Shown: positions 48,900 to 54,504 of the stretch, piece after piece
Layout: each line of letters opens with the position of its first letter
Numbering within the stretch: position 1 is the first letter of the stretch
From: Paenibacillus riograndensis SBR5
GTDB lineage: Bacteria; Bacillota; Bacilli; Paenibacillales; Paenibacillaceae
Length of the DNA: 64,000 nucleotides
Reading direction: 5' to 3'
NCBI RefSeq assembly: GCF_000981585.1
Contig: NZ_LN831776.1
Span: 5,687,187 to 5,751,186 of the forward strand
Position numbers and translations under genes: made by a program
The notes under the pieces: model-generated
The model's database searches: none
The model's input: the letters and a program-made list of their open reading frames with translations, nothing else
What the model was told of the DNA's origin: nothing

Positions 48900-49721
48900 C
48901 TATAATTCCTCCTTCTGTCCCGGTTTCCGCAGCCCCTCTCCCAGCAGATTGAAGCCCAGGACCGAAAGCATAATCGCCAATCCCGGATATAACAGCAGCC
49001 GGGGTTCCGTTTGGATGTAGGGCCGGCTATCGTTCAGCATGACTCCCCATTCCGGTGTTGGAGGCTGAGCGCCCAGGCCCAGGAAAGACAGACCGGCGAT
49101 CGAGAGCATCAGTGTACCGATTTCGATGGAAGCCAGCACCAGGATGGGACGGGTGGCATTCAAGAGAATATGCCGCAAAATAATCTGCAGATGCGTGGAG
49201 CCTCCAGCCTTGGCTGCCATAATGTAATCACTTTCCTTTATTTGCAGGACCATACTGCGGATCACTCTTGCATAGCCTGCCCACCACACTGCTGCAAAAG
49301 AGATAAGCAGGTTTTTCATGCTGGGGCCAAGCACCGCTGTAACAGCCAGAGAGAGAATGAGACTGGGAAAAGCCAGCAGGATGTCAATCACCCGCATGAT
49401 CAAATGATCGATTATTCCCCCAACATAGCCAGCGAGCAGGCCAACCGGAATACTAATAGAAAAAACCGCCGCCAGTACCATCAGTGAATAATATAGTGAA
49501 GTCCGCGTCCCGTAGATCAGACGGGATAAAACGCAGCGCCCCAGATGGTCCGTACCCAGAGGATACTCCCATGACGGCATACTTAGCTTGTGTTCCATAT
49601 GAATCTGAAGCGGATCGGATGGAGCAAGCCAAGGGGCAAATATTCCAATACATACGAACAGAAACACAATCATCCCGCCGGCTTTGGCCCCGTTACTCTT
49701 GAACATATGAAGGCGATACAA
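48900..49721 (-). CDS. nikC: ABC transporter permease, NikC/OppC type
   Basis: About 273 aa; N-terminal DUF-like lead, first span at about 15-35, then DHLGRCVLSRLIYGTRTSLYYSL near 58-80 and the dipeptide-permease coupling loop EAAKAGGSTHLQIILRHILLNA-like segment (ESDYIMAAKAGGS near 165). Five to six membrane spans. A TTG at 49721 with AAAGGGGGG eight bases ahead is the most likely start; TTG 49727 and ATG 49706 are alternatives. Partner of nikB. Confidence 0.9.
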   Translation of the reverse strand: MYRLHMFKSNGAKAGGMIVFLFVCIGIFAPWLAPSDPLQIHMEHKLSMPSWEYPLGTDHLGRCVLSRLIYGTRTSLYYSLMVLAAVFSISIPVGLLAGYVGGIIDHLIMRVIDILLAFPSLILSLAVTAVLGPSMKNLLISFAAVWWAGYARVIRSMVLQIKESDYIMAAKAGGSTHLQIILRHILLNATRPILVLASIEIGTLMLSIAGLSFLGLGAQPPTPEWGVMLNDSRPYIQTEPRLLLYPGLAIMLSVLGFNLLGEGLRKPGQKEEL

Positions 49722-49746
49722 GACCAACGCCCCCCTTTCTGCCGTT

Positions 49747-50691
49747 TCACCGCATCCTGATTCGCGGGTTCAGCAGCAGATGGAGCAAGTCCACCGCAAC
49801 GTTAATCAGGACAACGACAACAGCCATTATTAATACATAGCCTTGAATGACCGTGTAGTCTTTGGCAAAAATAGCTTCCACTGCATATTTGCCGATACCG
49901 GGCCAGGAAAAGATGCTCTCCACAATCACCGAACCGCCCAGCAGCCCCCCTATGTGAATCCCCAGCAAGGTGAGGCTGGGAAGAAGTGCATTGCGAAGCG
50001 CATGTCCGCCTATCACCTTCCATTCCTGCAGCCCCTTAGCCCTCGCCGCCTTGATATAGAGCTTGCCGAGAACCTCCAGCAGACTGGAACGGATCAGACG
50101 GATATAGATTCCCGCCATGCCAAAGCCGAGAGTACATGCAGGCAGAACCACACTCGGCCATCCCTCCATGCCCATCACAGGGAACCACTTCAGCTTCACC
50201 GCACCATAATAAATCAGCAGCAGGCCAAGCCAGTACCCTGGTACGGAAACACTGAACAGCGCACAGGCTCTTCCCAGACGATCCAGCAGGCTTCCCGGAT
50301 AGAGGGCAGAGCCGATGCCAAGCGGCAAGGCAATCAGCATTGCCGTCAACAAGGAGCAGCCGCTAAGCAGCGCTGTAGCCGGGAAACGGCTCATAAGTTC
50401 CTCCCGCACCGGCAAGCCGCTGCTGTAGGATATTCCCAAATCCAGATGAAACACGCGGTACAGCCAGTGCACAAATTGCATATGTATCGGCCCATCCAGG
50501 CCAAGAGCATGTCTGGTGGCCTGGATGGCCTCCAGCGTGGGCTTGATGCCGTCTGCACGCAGCATAATCTCCGCCGGATCCCCCGGCGTTATTTGCATCA
50601 GTGCAAAGGTTATTATGGAGATGCCAAACAGCACGGGAATAATCTGCAGCAGCCGCTGCACCAGATACCGTAAAATGATGTTCAACCCCAA
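49747..50691 (-). CDS. nikB: ABC transporter permease, NikB/DppB type
   Basis: 314 aa; LRYLVQRLLQIIPVLFGISIITFALMQITPGDP near the N-terminus is the DppB/NikB signature, followed by five further spans and the coupling loop YIKAARAKGLQEWKVIGGHALRNALLPSL near 208-236. The start is TTG (50691, or 50685) with only a weak ribosome site and a leader of about 15 nt behind the Zur-box promoter. First gene of the operon nikB-nikC-nikD-nikE-nikA-methyltransferase. Confidence 0.9.
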   Translation of the reverse strand: MGLNIILRYLVQRLLQIIPVLFGISIITFALMQITPGDPAEIMLRADGIKPTLEAIQATRHALGLDGPIHMQFVHWLYRVFHLDLGISYSSGLPVREELMSRFPATALLSGCSLLTAMLIALPLGIGSALYPGSLLDRLGRACALFSVSVPGYWLGLLLIYYGAVKLKWFPVMGMEGWPSVVLPACTLGFGMAGIYIRLIRSSLLEVLGKLYIKAARAKGLQEWKVIGGHALRNALLPSLTLLGIHIGGLLGGSVIVESIFSWPGIGKYAVEAIFAKDYTVIQGYVLIMAVVVVLINVAVDLLHLLLNPRIRMR

Positions 50692-50698
50692 TGCTTAT

Positions 50699-50713
50699 TC
50701 GTAATAATTACGA
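50699..50713. promoter_or_regulatory. Zur box at the promoter of the Nik-like operon
   Basis: TCGTAATAATTACGA is a perfect 7-1-7 inverted repeat and matches the B. subtilis Zur consensus TCGTAATNATTACGA at every fixed position; Fur (TGATAATNATTATCA) and PerR (TTATAATNATTATAA) boxes differ at positions 2-3. It abuts the minus-strand extended -10 TGCTATAAT (TATAAT at 50713-50718) and would cover the transcription start, so zinc-loaded Zur should repress the operon. Confidence 0.85.
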
Positions 50714-50886
50714 TTATAGCATAAAGTTTTAAAATTAATAGTCTAAATTTTACGTTCATATAAAACATGGCCGCTCCAGGCGGAGCGGCCAACGAATAAT
50801 ACCAAAGGGGCTTACTGCAACTTGATTTGAGGTAGAGGCAGAGAATCATTCTAATTTTAGGGGATAAGGGTTGTAGAAGTAGCAAC

Positions 50887-51523
50887 GGTTACACCGTCCT
50901 CCACGGGGCAGCGCAGCCGCCTTGGTTCTTGCATATCCTGGAGAACGATTCCTCATGAATTCTACGGCAACTCTTTAAGTGGAAAAAGGTTAACTAATTT
51001 GCCGGAGTACCCTATCCTCGGGCAGATGAAGTGGAAAAAGGAACACTAATTCAGCTCATTTCGCCATTTGGCATGAAATATGGCCCAATTAAGTTTACTT
51101 TTTCCACTTAAATCCCATGATTACTTAATTTTCGGAAAAATAAGTTCCCTTATTCCAACTAGCACCTGTGAAGAAGCCGGTAAAGACGGATCGCCCTATT
51201 CCTTCACGATCTATCCGCAGCCGTTACGGACAGGAGAGCCGTTATGGATAGAAGATTCGTCTATTCCGCAAGACAACGGACTCAGATGCCTTTATTTCTC
51301 CCTTTTCCCTTTATTCCAGACTCCATCGAACGATATAACGGCTCCTGTGTCCGTAACTGCTGAAAAAGCAAGGTTTTTGACTAGATAAGGGCTCCTCAGT
51401 CCGCTCAGTCTGCGGATGGAACTCCAGCCCACGGTTGGATCCCTATCCTTCTGCATCGCTTATATCCTTTGTGGCTCCCAAGATATCCTCATTTTTTTGC
51501 ACTGTATAATTTCCTATACAATG
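50887..51523 (+). repeat. Dispersed repeat copy C (uninterrupted)
   Basis: Full-length member of the family, about 640 bp: left module with hairpin-forming ACCGTCCTCCACGGGGCAGC, two AAGTGGAAAAAGG boxes, the unoccupied junction GCCCAATTAAGTTTAC (51083-51098), inverted CGGAAAAATAAGTTCCC, and right module beginning TGCCTTTATTTCTCCCTTTT and ending CACTGTATAATTTCCTATAC. No reliable gene lies in it. The rest of 51524-51686 also shows no supported gene. Confidence 0.85.
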
Positions 51524-51686
51524 AAATAAGGGGTAAGTCGCTTCCCCAAAAACATATAAATTTTTATCTTTAATAAGAAAACGCTCCCGGTATACAGGGA
51601 GCGTTGGCTGGTTGGTTTGTGAATTCCGGTGAAAAAGAATGGCAATGAAGGGACATGGAATCAGTCCATTGTCGAATGATAAAGGT

Positions 51687-51830
51687 TCAATCACCACCTA
51701 TACCGTGTCCCATAACTTGAATTAACATTTGAGTATTTCCGTCTGTTACAGGTTGGACGGTTACCACAGGTACAATAATTGCGATAGCCAGGCTACACGA
51801 AGCTAGAAGCATGATAAGTTTTCTTTTCAT
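51687..51830 (-). CDS. AloP/Phr-like secreted signalling pro-peptide
   Basis: Small gene of 47 codons overlapping the 3' end of the receptor gene by 38 bp. ATG at 51830 with AGAGGTG ten bases ahead. The product starts MKRKLIMLLASCSLAIAII, i.e. a basic end plus hydrophobic signal segment, then a polar stretch (QPVTDGNTQM) and the C-terminus VMGHGIGGD. Position, length, overlap and layout are those of Phr/AimP/AloP pro-peptides of RRNPP quorum-sensing systems. The C-terminal HGxGG recalls the mature peptide SHGRGG that I remember for an Alo system of P. polymyxa. The mature form (perhaps GHGIGG or GHGIGGD) is inferred. Confidence 0.75.
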   Translation of the reverse strand: MKRKLIMLLASCSLAIAIIVPVVTVQPVTDGNTQMLIQVMGHGIGGD

Positions 51831-53043
51831 TTGCGTTCTGCACCTCTCTGATCAGAAGTTTGTATTGCTCTTTCTCTTCTTCATTTGCTCGATGCCGATA
51901 GTGTTCAAACAGATCGACACATTTGATTACATTACTTTCGTTATTGATTTTAGCAGATGATTCCAAACCCTGTAGGATGAAGTTAATCCCTTCATTACGA
52001 TTATTATGTAAATAATAGGCCGCCAATTCAACGAGAAAACGGGCATATTGGTCTGCTACAATCTGCCGATTGTATTGACCAAATTCTGTGAAATTCGTCC
52101 GATAAGGGATATAGGCAGCAAACCGTTCCAGAATGTGATCAACATTCCAGTCGTACCGGTTAGCCGATATGATGATATTAAATAAGGCAGTAAATACCTC
52201 GTCACTTTGAGGGGAAATATGTTCTACATATTCAGGCAGTATTTCATGTTGTCCTGACATTAATTGATAGAGCATGGTGTTTGCAGTACCCCATTCCTGA
52301 TATTGAGCTACAGTTCTCTTGGCATTTTCATCGTCTTCTTGTATCCAGCTTGCAACCATGTAGAGGGCCACGAATTTTAGTGCTGACTTGTAGTCTTTGT
52401 TTTCTTCACAAACGCTTGAACGTACCAGATGTGAATAAAGGATATAGCGGTAGAATGGTTTCTCAGGTTTTTTCTCGTTGTTCTGCTTGCGGCTTGAGTG
52501 CTGAAGGTTATAGCGAAGAGTAGCCAACCGGAGCAATTCCTGCGCCAGTTCATCCACTTTATGCCACTTGCGTAGGGAATAATAAACATTGATCAAATGA
52601 TTTAGTCCATCCAATTGATCCGCTTCATCCAGCCGATCCAGATAACACTCAAAGAGGAGCGCCGCCTGCAAATTCTGGGTCTGATCGTCACCCAGGGCAA
52701 TTCTAAATAGGCGGTATTGACATGCCGCCAGCCGCTCGGAATTTTGATATTTCTCACTGGCGCTCACATTCCTATACAATAACGCTGCTGCTTGCCACTG
52801 CCCCTGTTGAAACAACCCTTCCGCTACTTCAAACAGCATGGGAGCGTAGGTCAGATTCTCAAGCAGATTCTGCACTACCTGTTCAATACAGTCGAGACGG
52901 CCCAGTTCTGCCGAACGCAAAAGAAACGGCCGCAGCCGCCGCCAAGTAGGGGAAGAATAATGGAAGCATTCATCTACATATAAACTGTAAAAATGGTCCT
53001 CCGGTAATTGCATACCCTTGGTAATCCGCTCCAGATGATTCAT
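51793..53043 (-). CDS. AloR-like quorum-sensing receptor, TPR part (frameshifted from its HTH)
   Basis: 416 aa helical-repeat (TPR-like) protein of the AimR/AloR branch of RRNPP receptors. It starts MNHLERITKGMQLPEDHFYSLY followed by VDECFHYSSPTWRRLRPFLL and continues with paired helices to the end. In relatives, the segment before MNHLERI is a XRE-type helix-turn-helix; here that part is encoded in another frame at 53040-53198 (separate entry). One added base in the G5 run at 53059-53063 would fuse the two. As it stands this frame starts at an ATG that overlaps the HTH stop (ATGA), so coupled translation is also conceivable. Followed by the overlapping pro-peptide gene at 51687-51830. Confidence 0.8.
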   Translation of the reverse strand: MNHLERITKGMQLPEDHFYSLYVDECFHYSSPTWRRLRPFLLRSAELGRLDCIEQVVQNLLENLTYAPMLFEVAEGLFQQGQWQAAALLYRNVSASEKYQNSERLAACQYRLFRIALGDDQTQNLQAALLFECYLDRLDEADQLDGLNHLINVYYSLRKWHKVDELAQELLRLATLRYNLQHSSRKQNNEKKPEKPFYRYILYSHLVRSSVCEENKDYKSALKFVALYMVASWIQEDDENAKRTVAQYQEWGTANTMLYQLMSGQHEILPEYVEHISPQSDEVFTALFNIIISANRYDWNVDHILERFAAYIPYRTNFTEFGQYNRQIVADQYARFLVELAAYYLHNNRNEGINFILQGLESSAKINNESNVIKCVDLFEHYRHRANEEEKEQYKLLIREVQNANEKKTYHASSFV

Positions 53044-53198
53044 GGCAATCGGCTGGTGCCCCCAACCACCCGGCTAAGTGTTCCAGCATTAATTCCGGAT
53101 ATTCCGGCAAATTGATTAATGGACATTCCATGCTGTGACAGATACATTGCTAATGCATCGCGAATCGTGGCTGTAGCCCCGGCATCATCCCGCCCCAT
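53040..53198 (-). CDS. HTH part of the AloR-like receptor (separated by a frameshift)
   Basis: 52-codon frame, ATG at 53198 with GGAAG upstream. It reads TATIRDALAMYLSQHGMSIN then QFAGISGINAGTLSRVVGG and ends TSRLP-stop. This is a XRE-like helix-turn-helix; the shifted frame after the G5 run gives GHQPIA directly before MNHLERI, the normal continuation in such receptors. Thus the receptor gene probably spans 51793-53198 with a one-base deletion (in nature or in the assembly). Confidence 0.72.
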   Translation of the reverse strand: MGRDDAGATATIRDALAMYLSQHGMSINQFAGISGINAGTLSRVVGGTSRLP

Positions 53199-53222
53199 AA
53201 ACCAGCTTCCAGTTTAATACCA

Positions 53223-53250
53223 TTGACAACCCTAAAATTCTGCATAAAAT
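53223..53250 (+). promoter_or_regulatory. Promoter candidate of the ECF/desulfidase operon
   Basis: -35 TTGACA (53223-53228), 16-bp spacer, -10 TAAAAT (53245-53250). The transcript would have a leader of about 160 nt before 53421. No known riboswitch consensus was recognised in that leader, though it holds repeated GTTCATGTAC / GTTATGTAC segments. Confidence 0.5.
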
Positions 53251-53420
53251 GATATACAATAATACCAATATACTTACTTGGTTATTTATTCGTCTGTAGT
53301 GTTTGCCGGTTCATGTACGGCGGCGCTCGTTATGTACAAAGGGGGCTTCGGGTTCATAATCAGCTGGATTCATGAAATGAAAAAATTCATCAGCATTATG
53401 ATCTTTAGGAGGAGAATGAA

Positions 53421-54002
53421 ATGAATCAAAAAACGCTCGTCATTACGCTGGGAGCCCTTGCTATTGCCATTAATGTCATTGCAGGAACTGTGGTCAGCAA
53501 TTTAAAAATTCCTTTTCTGTTTCTGGATACCGTTGGCACTATATTCATTGCCGCCGTCTTTGGCCCCTTATGGGGAGCGCTCGTCGGCCTGCTGACAAAC
53601 CTTGTGCTTGGTGTAACCTCAGGGTATACAGCTATACCTTTTGCTCTTGTAAATGTCATTGTCGGTCTGGTGGTCGGCTATGCCTCCCGTAAGAAAGGCT
53701 TCACCTTCTCTTCAGCCCTGGTCTCGGGTATTATTCTGGGCATTCTATGCCCCGCCGTGGGTTCAGTGATCGCCATTGGATTGTTTGGCGGATTAACGGG
53801 CGGAGTGCAGGATGTTGCGGTGTTATGGCTCAAGCAGGCAGGAACCAGCTTGTTCGCTGCCGCTTTTCTGCCGCGCCTTGGCGAGAACCTGATCGATAAA
53901 ATTCTATCCGCCCTGCTTGTATATTACGTAGTCAAGAATCTGCCGCATTCTTTAATCAAGCGCCCGGCGCTTAAGAAGAAGGATAGTTCCCGTGCAGCGT
54001 AG
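53421..54002 (+). CDS. ECF transporter S component (CD3073-like)
   Basis: 193 aa integral membrane protein with about six spans: ITLGALAIAINVIAGTVV near 9-26, FLDTVGTIFIAAVFGPLWGALVGLLTNL near 35-62, and a C-terminal helix before the charged tail RPALKKKDSS. Length and pattern fit an ECF substrate-capture subunit and match what I know as the CD3073-type family. It overlaps the TudS-related gene by 11 bp and is followed by EcfA1, EcfA2 and EcfT, so the operon encodes a complete importer. Substrate unknown; the partner enzyme suggests a sulfur-containing compound. RBS AGGAGGAG. Confidence 0.85.
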   Translation: MNQKTLVITLGALAIAINVIAGTVVSNLKIPFLFLDTVGTIFIAAVFGPLWGALVGLLTNLVLGVTSGYTAIPFALVNVIVGLVVGYASRKKGFTFSSALVSGIILGILCPAVGSVIAIGLFGGLTGGVQDVAVLWLKQAGTSLFAAAFLPRLGENLIDKILSALLVYYVVKNLPHSLIKRPALKKKDSSRAA

Positions 54003-54504
54003 CAAAAAGATTATTGTAGCCTCCCACTGCGTCATCAATCAGAATGCCGTAGTGGAAGGCGAGGCTCGAAGTCCAGGCGTGATGAAAGCGGCAGTCGACT
54101 GGACTTATGAGCAGGGGTACGGGCTGTTTCAGCTGCCCTGCCCGGAATTCACCTTCCTGGGGCCGGAGCGTCCTCCAATGACGGTCGAGGAGTACGATAC
54201 CCCGGAATTCCGCAGCCATAACCGCAGCATTCTCCAGCCTGTTGTGGAACAGCTGAAAACCTATCAGGATCACGGGTATTCCATCGTGGGCGGCCTCGGA
54301 ATCTCGGGCAGCCCCTCCTGCGATCCGGGCAAAGGCGTATTTATGCGCGACTTTCTGGAGCTGGCCGCAGAGAACGGGGTAGCCATTGATTTCTTCTGGC
54401 AGATTCCCAACACCGCTGACGGAACCTTCAATCCCGGGGATTCAAATAGTGTCTACGGCCCTACCCGTACGCCTGTAACCCAAAAGGGTGATGAGCAGCA
54501 ATGA
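53992..54504 (+). CDS. TudS-related putative desulfidase (CD3072-like)
   Basis: 170 aa cytoplasmic protein related to DUF523/TudS, enzymes that remove sulfur from thio-bases using a [4Fe-4S] cluster held by three Cys. Here the Cys are in IVASHCVINQNA (13), QLPCPEFTFLGPERPP (about 48) and ISGSPSCDPGKGV (about 108), matching the expected three. GTG start at 53992, inside the S-component gene; the stop overlaps the EcfA1 start (ATGA). Coupling to a dedicated ECF importer suggests desulfuration of an imported thio-compound. The substrate cannot be told. Confidence 0.8.
   Translation: MQRSKKIIVASHCVINQNAVVEGEARSPGVMKAAVDWTYEQGYGLFQLPCPEFTFLGPERPPMTVEEYDTPEFRSHNRSILQPVVEQLKTYQDHGYSIVGGLGISGSPSCDPGKGVFMRDFLELAAENGVAIDFFWQIPNTADGTFNPGDSNSVYGPTRTPVTQKGDEQQ

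Follow-up and report, generated by a model that had tools for sequence, protein, structure and literature searches.

A probably recently broken Alo-family peptide-signalling locus in Paenibacillus riograndensis SBR5

Organization of the Locus

The window, the whole 64,000-nucleotide stretch of Paenibacillus riograndensis SBR5 DNA that was analysed, contained three consecutive open reading frames (ORFs) on its minus strand with the layout of an AloR-AloP receptor-peptide system. The HTH ORF (53198..53040; 52 amino acids) matched residues ~5-45 of intact AloRs in alignment and had Pfam matches to HTH_26 (E 9e-4) and HTH_psq (E 1e-4). It appears to be what a 5' truncation has left of the N-terminal, DNA-binding part of aloR, which by chance now lies behind a start codon of the flank. 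The TPR ORF (51793..53043; 416 amino acids) corresponds to the putative peptide-binding part of AloR and started at a conserved Met, which in intact AloRs is an internal residue (~49). The HTH and TPR ORFs lay in different frames and were joined by an ATGA. The third ORF, aloP (51687..51830), was taken from the ORF list and encoded a putative 47-aa signal propeptide with the tail MGHGIGGD; its hydrophobic segment and its -38 offset were as in relatives, and it overlapped the TPR ORF by 38 nt (51793-51830). An earlier description of the locus, made from the letters alone (the sequence-only reading), had named an HTH segment, a TPR-like protein and a 47-codon gene with a 38-base overlap, and all were found where it had placed them. 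The HTH segment and the TPR-like protein, which it had treated as separate units, do exist as separate ORFs here, but in relatives they form one gene that is frame-split in the window.

A ribosome-binding site for aloP (GAGAGGTGCAG; 51838..51848, minus strand) was located within aloR. Of 35 aligned pairs, the window counted, 34 conserve its AGGTG. Synonymous identity at codons 390-413 was 0.78-0.79, versus 0.44-0.74 in the preceding blocks. A candidate internal promoter for aloP (TTGAAT-N17-CATAAT, 52031-52003) lay inside the 3' part of aloR; the site was not clearly conserved in relatives. A terminator-like hairpin lay 3' of aloP (51580..51605, minus strand), one of three terminator-like sites against a shuffle mean of 2.3. 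The flank that includes this hairpin (51562-51734) matched a second alo copy in the same genome at 70%.

Pfam gave no family above cut-off for the TPR ORF, and NCBIfam no match above cut-off. The one weak Pfam match of the small ORF (DUF6131, E 0.006) was below cut-off and was not used. An Rfam scan of 50500-54000 returned nothing relevant, its one match being far under the gathering score.

Relatives of the Receptor

A protein search returned 378 receptor relatives. The best 120, which included the window's own, were listed, and those that were named were nearly all Paenibacillus. The closest receptors among the matches listed had 89 and 87% identity. Of the 119 other relatives listed, 103 were at least 440 aa long (range 362-471), because their HTH and TPR parts share one frame; in an alignment of ten, both parts formed one in-frame protein of ~465 aa. 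Of 100 genomes of the genus, 28 had a receptor match at E <= 1e-130; among 40 relatives, 22 genomes had matches at E <= 1e-20, and these belonged to 2 of 13 genera. The genome of the window had 13 matching places, three of them pieces of one degenerate copy.

Of 47 receptors scanned, a set that includes the window ORF without its HTH, 35 matched HTH_3 and 34 matched HTH_26. PHROGs gave weak regulator and HTH matches, for the intact relative P0002 only. The receptor model was all-helical and TPR-like, with similar structural scores for NprR, Rap and non-RRNPP TPR proteins. A profile of the 47 sequences compared with solved structures found the HTH of other regulators and weak matches, and no RRNPP receptor.

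Layout, peptide and taxon support the assignment of the locus to the Alo-type (RRNPP) systems. The identification as an AloR/AloP-type locus, proposed from the letters, held up, as relatives with the same layout and an HGxG tail were recovered; both homologous receptor-peptide pairs and a conserved tail, on which family membership had been staked, were found. The proposal that the pair is specific to this strain was not supported: a P. helianthi receptor of 82-83% identity accompanies the tail MGHGAGGD, and receptors of 74-79% identity occurred in many genomes of the genus. The window gene is filed as a broken member because the HTH-TPR frame is open in relatives (the two parts were joined in frame at 48 of 49 loci) and not in the window.

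Several AloR paralogues had no detected peptide (L075, L078, L079, L083, L085, L088, L089, L093, L095, and L096). These ended in ...QIG(A/I/P)YL or similar, and several adjoined a complete pair; they are possible orphan receptors.

Signal Peptide and the HGxG Core

A hydrophobic small ORF occurred at the same -38 offset behind many relatives' receptors. In addition to the P. helianthi ORF, tails included MTHGIGDG behind the HW567 receptor (79%) and MGHGYGGG behind that of P. graminis (78%); across the receptors of 74-79% identity the tails were of the form [GNT]HGxG. Among distinct receptors of at least 66% identity, 35 of 49, the window counted, had such an ORF, and in the window this short overlapping ORF with a hydrophobic N-terminus was aloP (51830..51687).

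A set of 33 distinct clade peptides was compiled from ORFs longer than 35 aa at offsets of -38, -59 or -32, the -59 ones being N-terminally trimmed. These peptides aligned over their full length, and the H, the G and the second G of HGxG were invariant in 33 of 33. The entropy of x was 2.88 bits, compared with 2.87 for the most variable linker column. The x position is as variable as the linker, yet it is flanked by invariant residues.

In a wider set of 118 distinct receptor 3' ends, 77 carried a small ORF with a hydrophobic segment, which gave 75 distinct peptides, and 41 carried none. HG.G fell within the last 14 residues of 65 of the 75 peptides (shuffle mean 3.5, maximum 12, 1000 shuffles), a count favoured by choosing the HG-bearing ORF where several qualified. 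An HG.G peptide at the extreme C-terminus was missing for 57 of 151 distinct receptors, 13 of which had another hydrophobic small ORF. The mature signal of the window would be GHGIGG(D). The sequence-only reading had likened the core to SHGRGG from a P. polymyxa system; this is the mature AloP13 peptide in the accessible text of PMC7425212 and fits HGxG as the shared core.

Lesions of the Receptor Gene

The window was compared with 49 other loci of at least 66% identity, in which L049 duplicates an L075 receptor. At the end of the HTH (53054..53064, minus strand) the window gene had a net one-base shift relative to relatives, which gives the TGA/ATG overlap. The HTH frame was open in 48 of the 49 other loci and closed in the window. 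A spaced -35/-10 promoter was present in 44 of the 49, of which 36 were exactly TTGACC-N17-TAWWAT, and a GGNGGT ribosome site in 47; both were absent in the window. The strict test also missed the -35/-10 in 5 and the ribosome site in 2 of the 49 other loci, so that any single lesion alone is weak. No promoter-like site was listed on the minus strand between 53198 and 53500. Programmed frameshifting at the G-run was rejected as a family feature, 48 of the 49 other loci being open there.

The sequence-only reading had drawn a live receptor; in the window gene the native promoter, the ribosome site and the first codons are missing, and the HTH and TPR parts are read in different frames. From these lesions, a working receptor is very unlikely. 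The flank ATG shares the frame of the HTH, and the ATGA overlap could couple translation of the HTH and TPR ORFs, which makes some product possible.

Two other features were observed in these comparisons. A second receptor in G070 (L088, G070:C1:5656195) also had a broken HTH frame with an open TPR frame. Just 5' of the -35 box, most relatives (L072-L110) carried a GTTCAC...ACTAAT element, a possible AloR operator.

Junction with Flanking DNA

The alo DNA met DNA of the ECF-transporter side at 53172..53178. The nearest genome found at the window locus, G074, matched window positions 53175-54500 at 98% nucleotide identity (L131, 6079-7404), and this similarity stopped at 53175. The match covered the DNA before and over the start of an ECF-transporter operon, where G074 has no alo genes. 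In DNA alignment, alo relatives ran past the junction point into their own codons, ribosome-binding site and promoter. The first ~8 codons of the HTH ORF were DNA shared with G074 and not alo DNA; the start codon at 53198 and the codons after it are flank DNA, because the G074 similarity extends down to 53175.

On the other side, window positions 49000-51508 (transporter genes and a repeat) were 95% identical to G074. Between these flanks, G074 carried ~9.35 kb of other DNA, versus the 1.67 kb alo segment of the window. By inspection, the ORFs of the G074 segment included a two-component pair, ABC transporter genes and a large hydrolase; the hydrolase-like ORF had no match in the window's own genome at E <= 1e-20, in a search run without a positive control. 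The best receptor match in G074 was 64% identical and located elsewhere. The flanks of 40 alo loci (L072-L111) fell into 14 separate neighbourhoods. The tested neighbour genes of the window were absent around these 40 loci, and the arrangement before the break was found in no genome. Likely, an older layout had alo beside the other cluster, and the window lineage and G074 lost different parts of it.

The stretch from the transporter operon to the ECF operon was a variable spot, with alo in the window (51508-53175) and the other cluster in G074 (L131/L153). In G040 and G085, other genes precede the ECF operon there.

A dispersed ~0.7 kb non-coding repeat directly adjoined the alo segment (50880..51586, plus strand). 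The repeat had at least 46 rows in the own genome (40 of 200 candidates scored in a first look), and G074 also has a copy. No Rfam family was assigned to it at threshold. By eye, several aligned copies ended beside terminator-like hairpins.

Age of the Break and a Second Copy

The window TPR ORF deviated by 2 residues at columns otherwise at least 95% conserved (range 0-9 among 49 receptors), and a signal of relaxed selection was looked for in it and not found. The break is probably recent, because the TPR ORF, aloP and its ribosome site are undamaged.

The second alo copy, of the same clade in the same genome (L111, 6001-7287; 6129935-6131221), was degenerate, with broken frames over 6129935-6131135. 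By eye, a deletion spanned the -10, the ribosome site and most of the HTH. A peptide remnant (MGHGYGSG) was left, and a copy of the ~0.7 kb repeat lay upstream. The alo sub-clade seems to be decaying in this lineage.

Covariation of Peptide Residue x with the Receptor

Covariation was analysed in 93 receptor-peptide pairs, L195 having been dropped from 94 for a tail out of register. The tree-corrected ranking used the 56 pairs of at least 60% identity, and the other 37 were tabulated only. In tree-based contrasts over the 56 pairs, the size of x correlated with TPR residue 155 (r = -0.71), which ranked first of 320 columns. Residue 151, one helical turn away, ranked second (r = -0.67). Column 155 was also at the top among the first 38 pairs (0.76, where the 95% maximum under permutation was 0.49). 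None of the 22 new pairs of at least 60% identity had an aromatic x, so that they test the small-x side only, and in the 37 more distant pairs the size trend was weak for non-aromatic x.

Gly155 accompanied aromatic x in 11 of 13 pairs and occurred in 0 of the 80 others; the Fisher p of this contrast ignores relatedness, and the branch count is the fairer figure. The two exceptions were L080, in which Ala155 goes with Phe, and L036 (34% identity), in which Phe155 goes with Tyr. On the 184 branches of a tree built without residues 140-181, 8 changes coincided, of 11 in aromatic x and 10 in Gly155, with gains and losses pooled and several coincidences within one clade.

Residues 151 and 155 lay on a predicted helix (140-156), which by repeat order would be an inner TPR helix lining the groove. 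In the window, the codons were checked for Tyr155 (52579..52581), Ile151 (52591..52593) and the aloP residue Ile44, the x of HGxG (51699..51701), all on the minus strand. Tyr155 was the commonest kind for x = Ile (7 of 10 pairs at >=60% identity); the window pair is still matched, because its combination is the commonest for Ile. The covariation supports a cognate relation between receptor and peptide, with HGxG as the core that is recognised, and its location at 151 and 155 supports recognition of the peptide by the receptor. We infer that these two residues contact x.

A fixed HG_G frame may present a hypervariable x to a pocket at 155 and 151 that reads it by complementary size, and in which Gly would admit an aromatic residue and Tyr would go with a small or branched x. 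Channels could be re-tuned in this way, and the window would be a speaker without a listener. We hold this proposal to be evenly balanced between right and wrong. If it is true, changes at 155 and 151 re-tune a channel, which may explain the many separate Alo channels per genome, and the window strain has an intact, matched signal gene with its own receptor cut off from DNA binding. The alignments point to a testable one-residue recognition code in the family. No earlier report of an x/155 code was found in the literature searched or by its terms in the accessible text of PMC7425212.

Interpretation

The best explanation, to which we give a probability of about 0.8, is that an RRNPP peptide-signalling system of the Alo family has been broken here in recent times. 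Recombination or deletion would have fused the HTH interior of aloR (about codon 4-5) to DNA upstream of the ECF-transporter operon, and by this fusion the native promoter, ribosome site and start of aloR would have been lost. A further shift of reading frame would have split the HTH from the TPR part. At most, the strain may still produce the signal, or a TPR fragment unable to bind DNA, because aloP, its ribosome site, the TPR frame and the Ile-x/Tyr155 pairing are undamaged. The layout, truncation, frameshift, undamaged TPR part and aloP, and covariation are sequence results, from which the loss of function and the order of events are inferred.

The frameshift, not the truncation, could stem from a base-calling error. 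The break coincides with five consecutive G, the flank ATG opens the frame of the HTH, the TPR part and aloP are without decay, and a single sequence of the window gene was found (one member). A sequencing or assembly error in the G-run would leave a working chimeric receptor (MGRDDAGATATIRD...) made from the flank start codon. We consider this unlikely: base calling has no bearing on the missing promoter, ribosome site and first codons, whose loss is seen against a G074 flank of 98% identity; the assembly, a single contig of 7.92 Mb, looks to be of high quality (100% complete, 0.42% contamination); and the genome's seven other receptor genes that matched over most of the query contain no internal stops.

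Less probable again is a working split system, with HTH and TPR parts made separately through ATGA coupling, or with the TPR part alone acting as a sink, as a decoy for intact AloR partners, or as a Rap-like protein without an HTH. The TPR ORF does start at the conserved Met and continues uninterrupted for 416 codons, and the L088 receptor of G070 has likewise lost its HTH frame and kept the TPR part open. However, the single frame shared by HTH and TPR in 48 of the 49 other loci indicates that the split is not the family design, the upstream 53198-53500 stretch has no listed promoter-like site on the minus strand, and the truncated 5' end resembles an accident at the junction. An intact, strain-specific AloR/AloP pair, correct as to layout and HGxGG tail, is scarcely credible for a receptor that has lost its promoter, its ribosome site, its first codons and the open frame between HTH and TPR, and with close pairs in many genomes.

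Read as a recently broken Alo member, the window locus is probably a decaying copy of a described system, and caution is advised against taking it for a live quorum-sensing pair. Paenibacillus genomes can hold a dozen or more Alo channels, and the covariation bears on how these are kept separate. It names single swap positions on both partners, and swapping them would be a direct test of channel specificity in the published Bacillus subtilis reporter design.

Comparison with Known Systems

Alo systems (AloR-AloP) were described in Paenibacillus polymyxa (Voichek et al., 2020; PMC7425212), and the accessible parts of PMC10075063 and PMC9765709 count AloR, from Paenibacillaceae or Paenibacillus, among the receptor families of RRNPP type. 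According to the accessible text of PMC7425212, the AloR of Alo13 is an HTH-TPR transcription factor; its AloP is secreted, cut to the last ~6 residues and re-imported, and binds the TPR part, by which AloR's activation of its target is switched off. For NprR-NprX, Rap-Phr and other RRNPP systems, the sequence profile of the window family reaches no solved receptor of theirs.

The window resembles the Alo systems, as presented in that text, in having an HTH and TPR receptor followed by a propeptide (32-50 aa) with a hydrophobic N-terminus, in an HGxGG-type C-terminus (SHGRGG in AloP13; GHGIGG(D) here), and in a Paenibacillaceae host with many copies per genome. Unlike them, the window receptor is 5'-truncated and frame-split. 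The same text places spo0E-like genes behind several Alo systems, whereas the next long same-strand ORFs of the window are ~1 kb away, past the terminator-like site and the repeat, and by inspection belong to a dipeptide/Opp-type transporter. Additionally, it reports receptors without a peptide and degenerate peptides; the window shows the reverse, with the peptide gene intact and the adjoining receptor broken.
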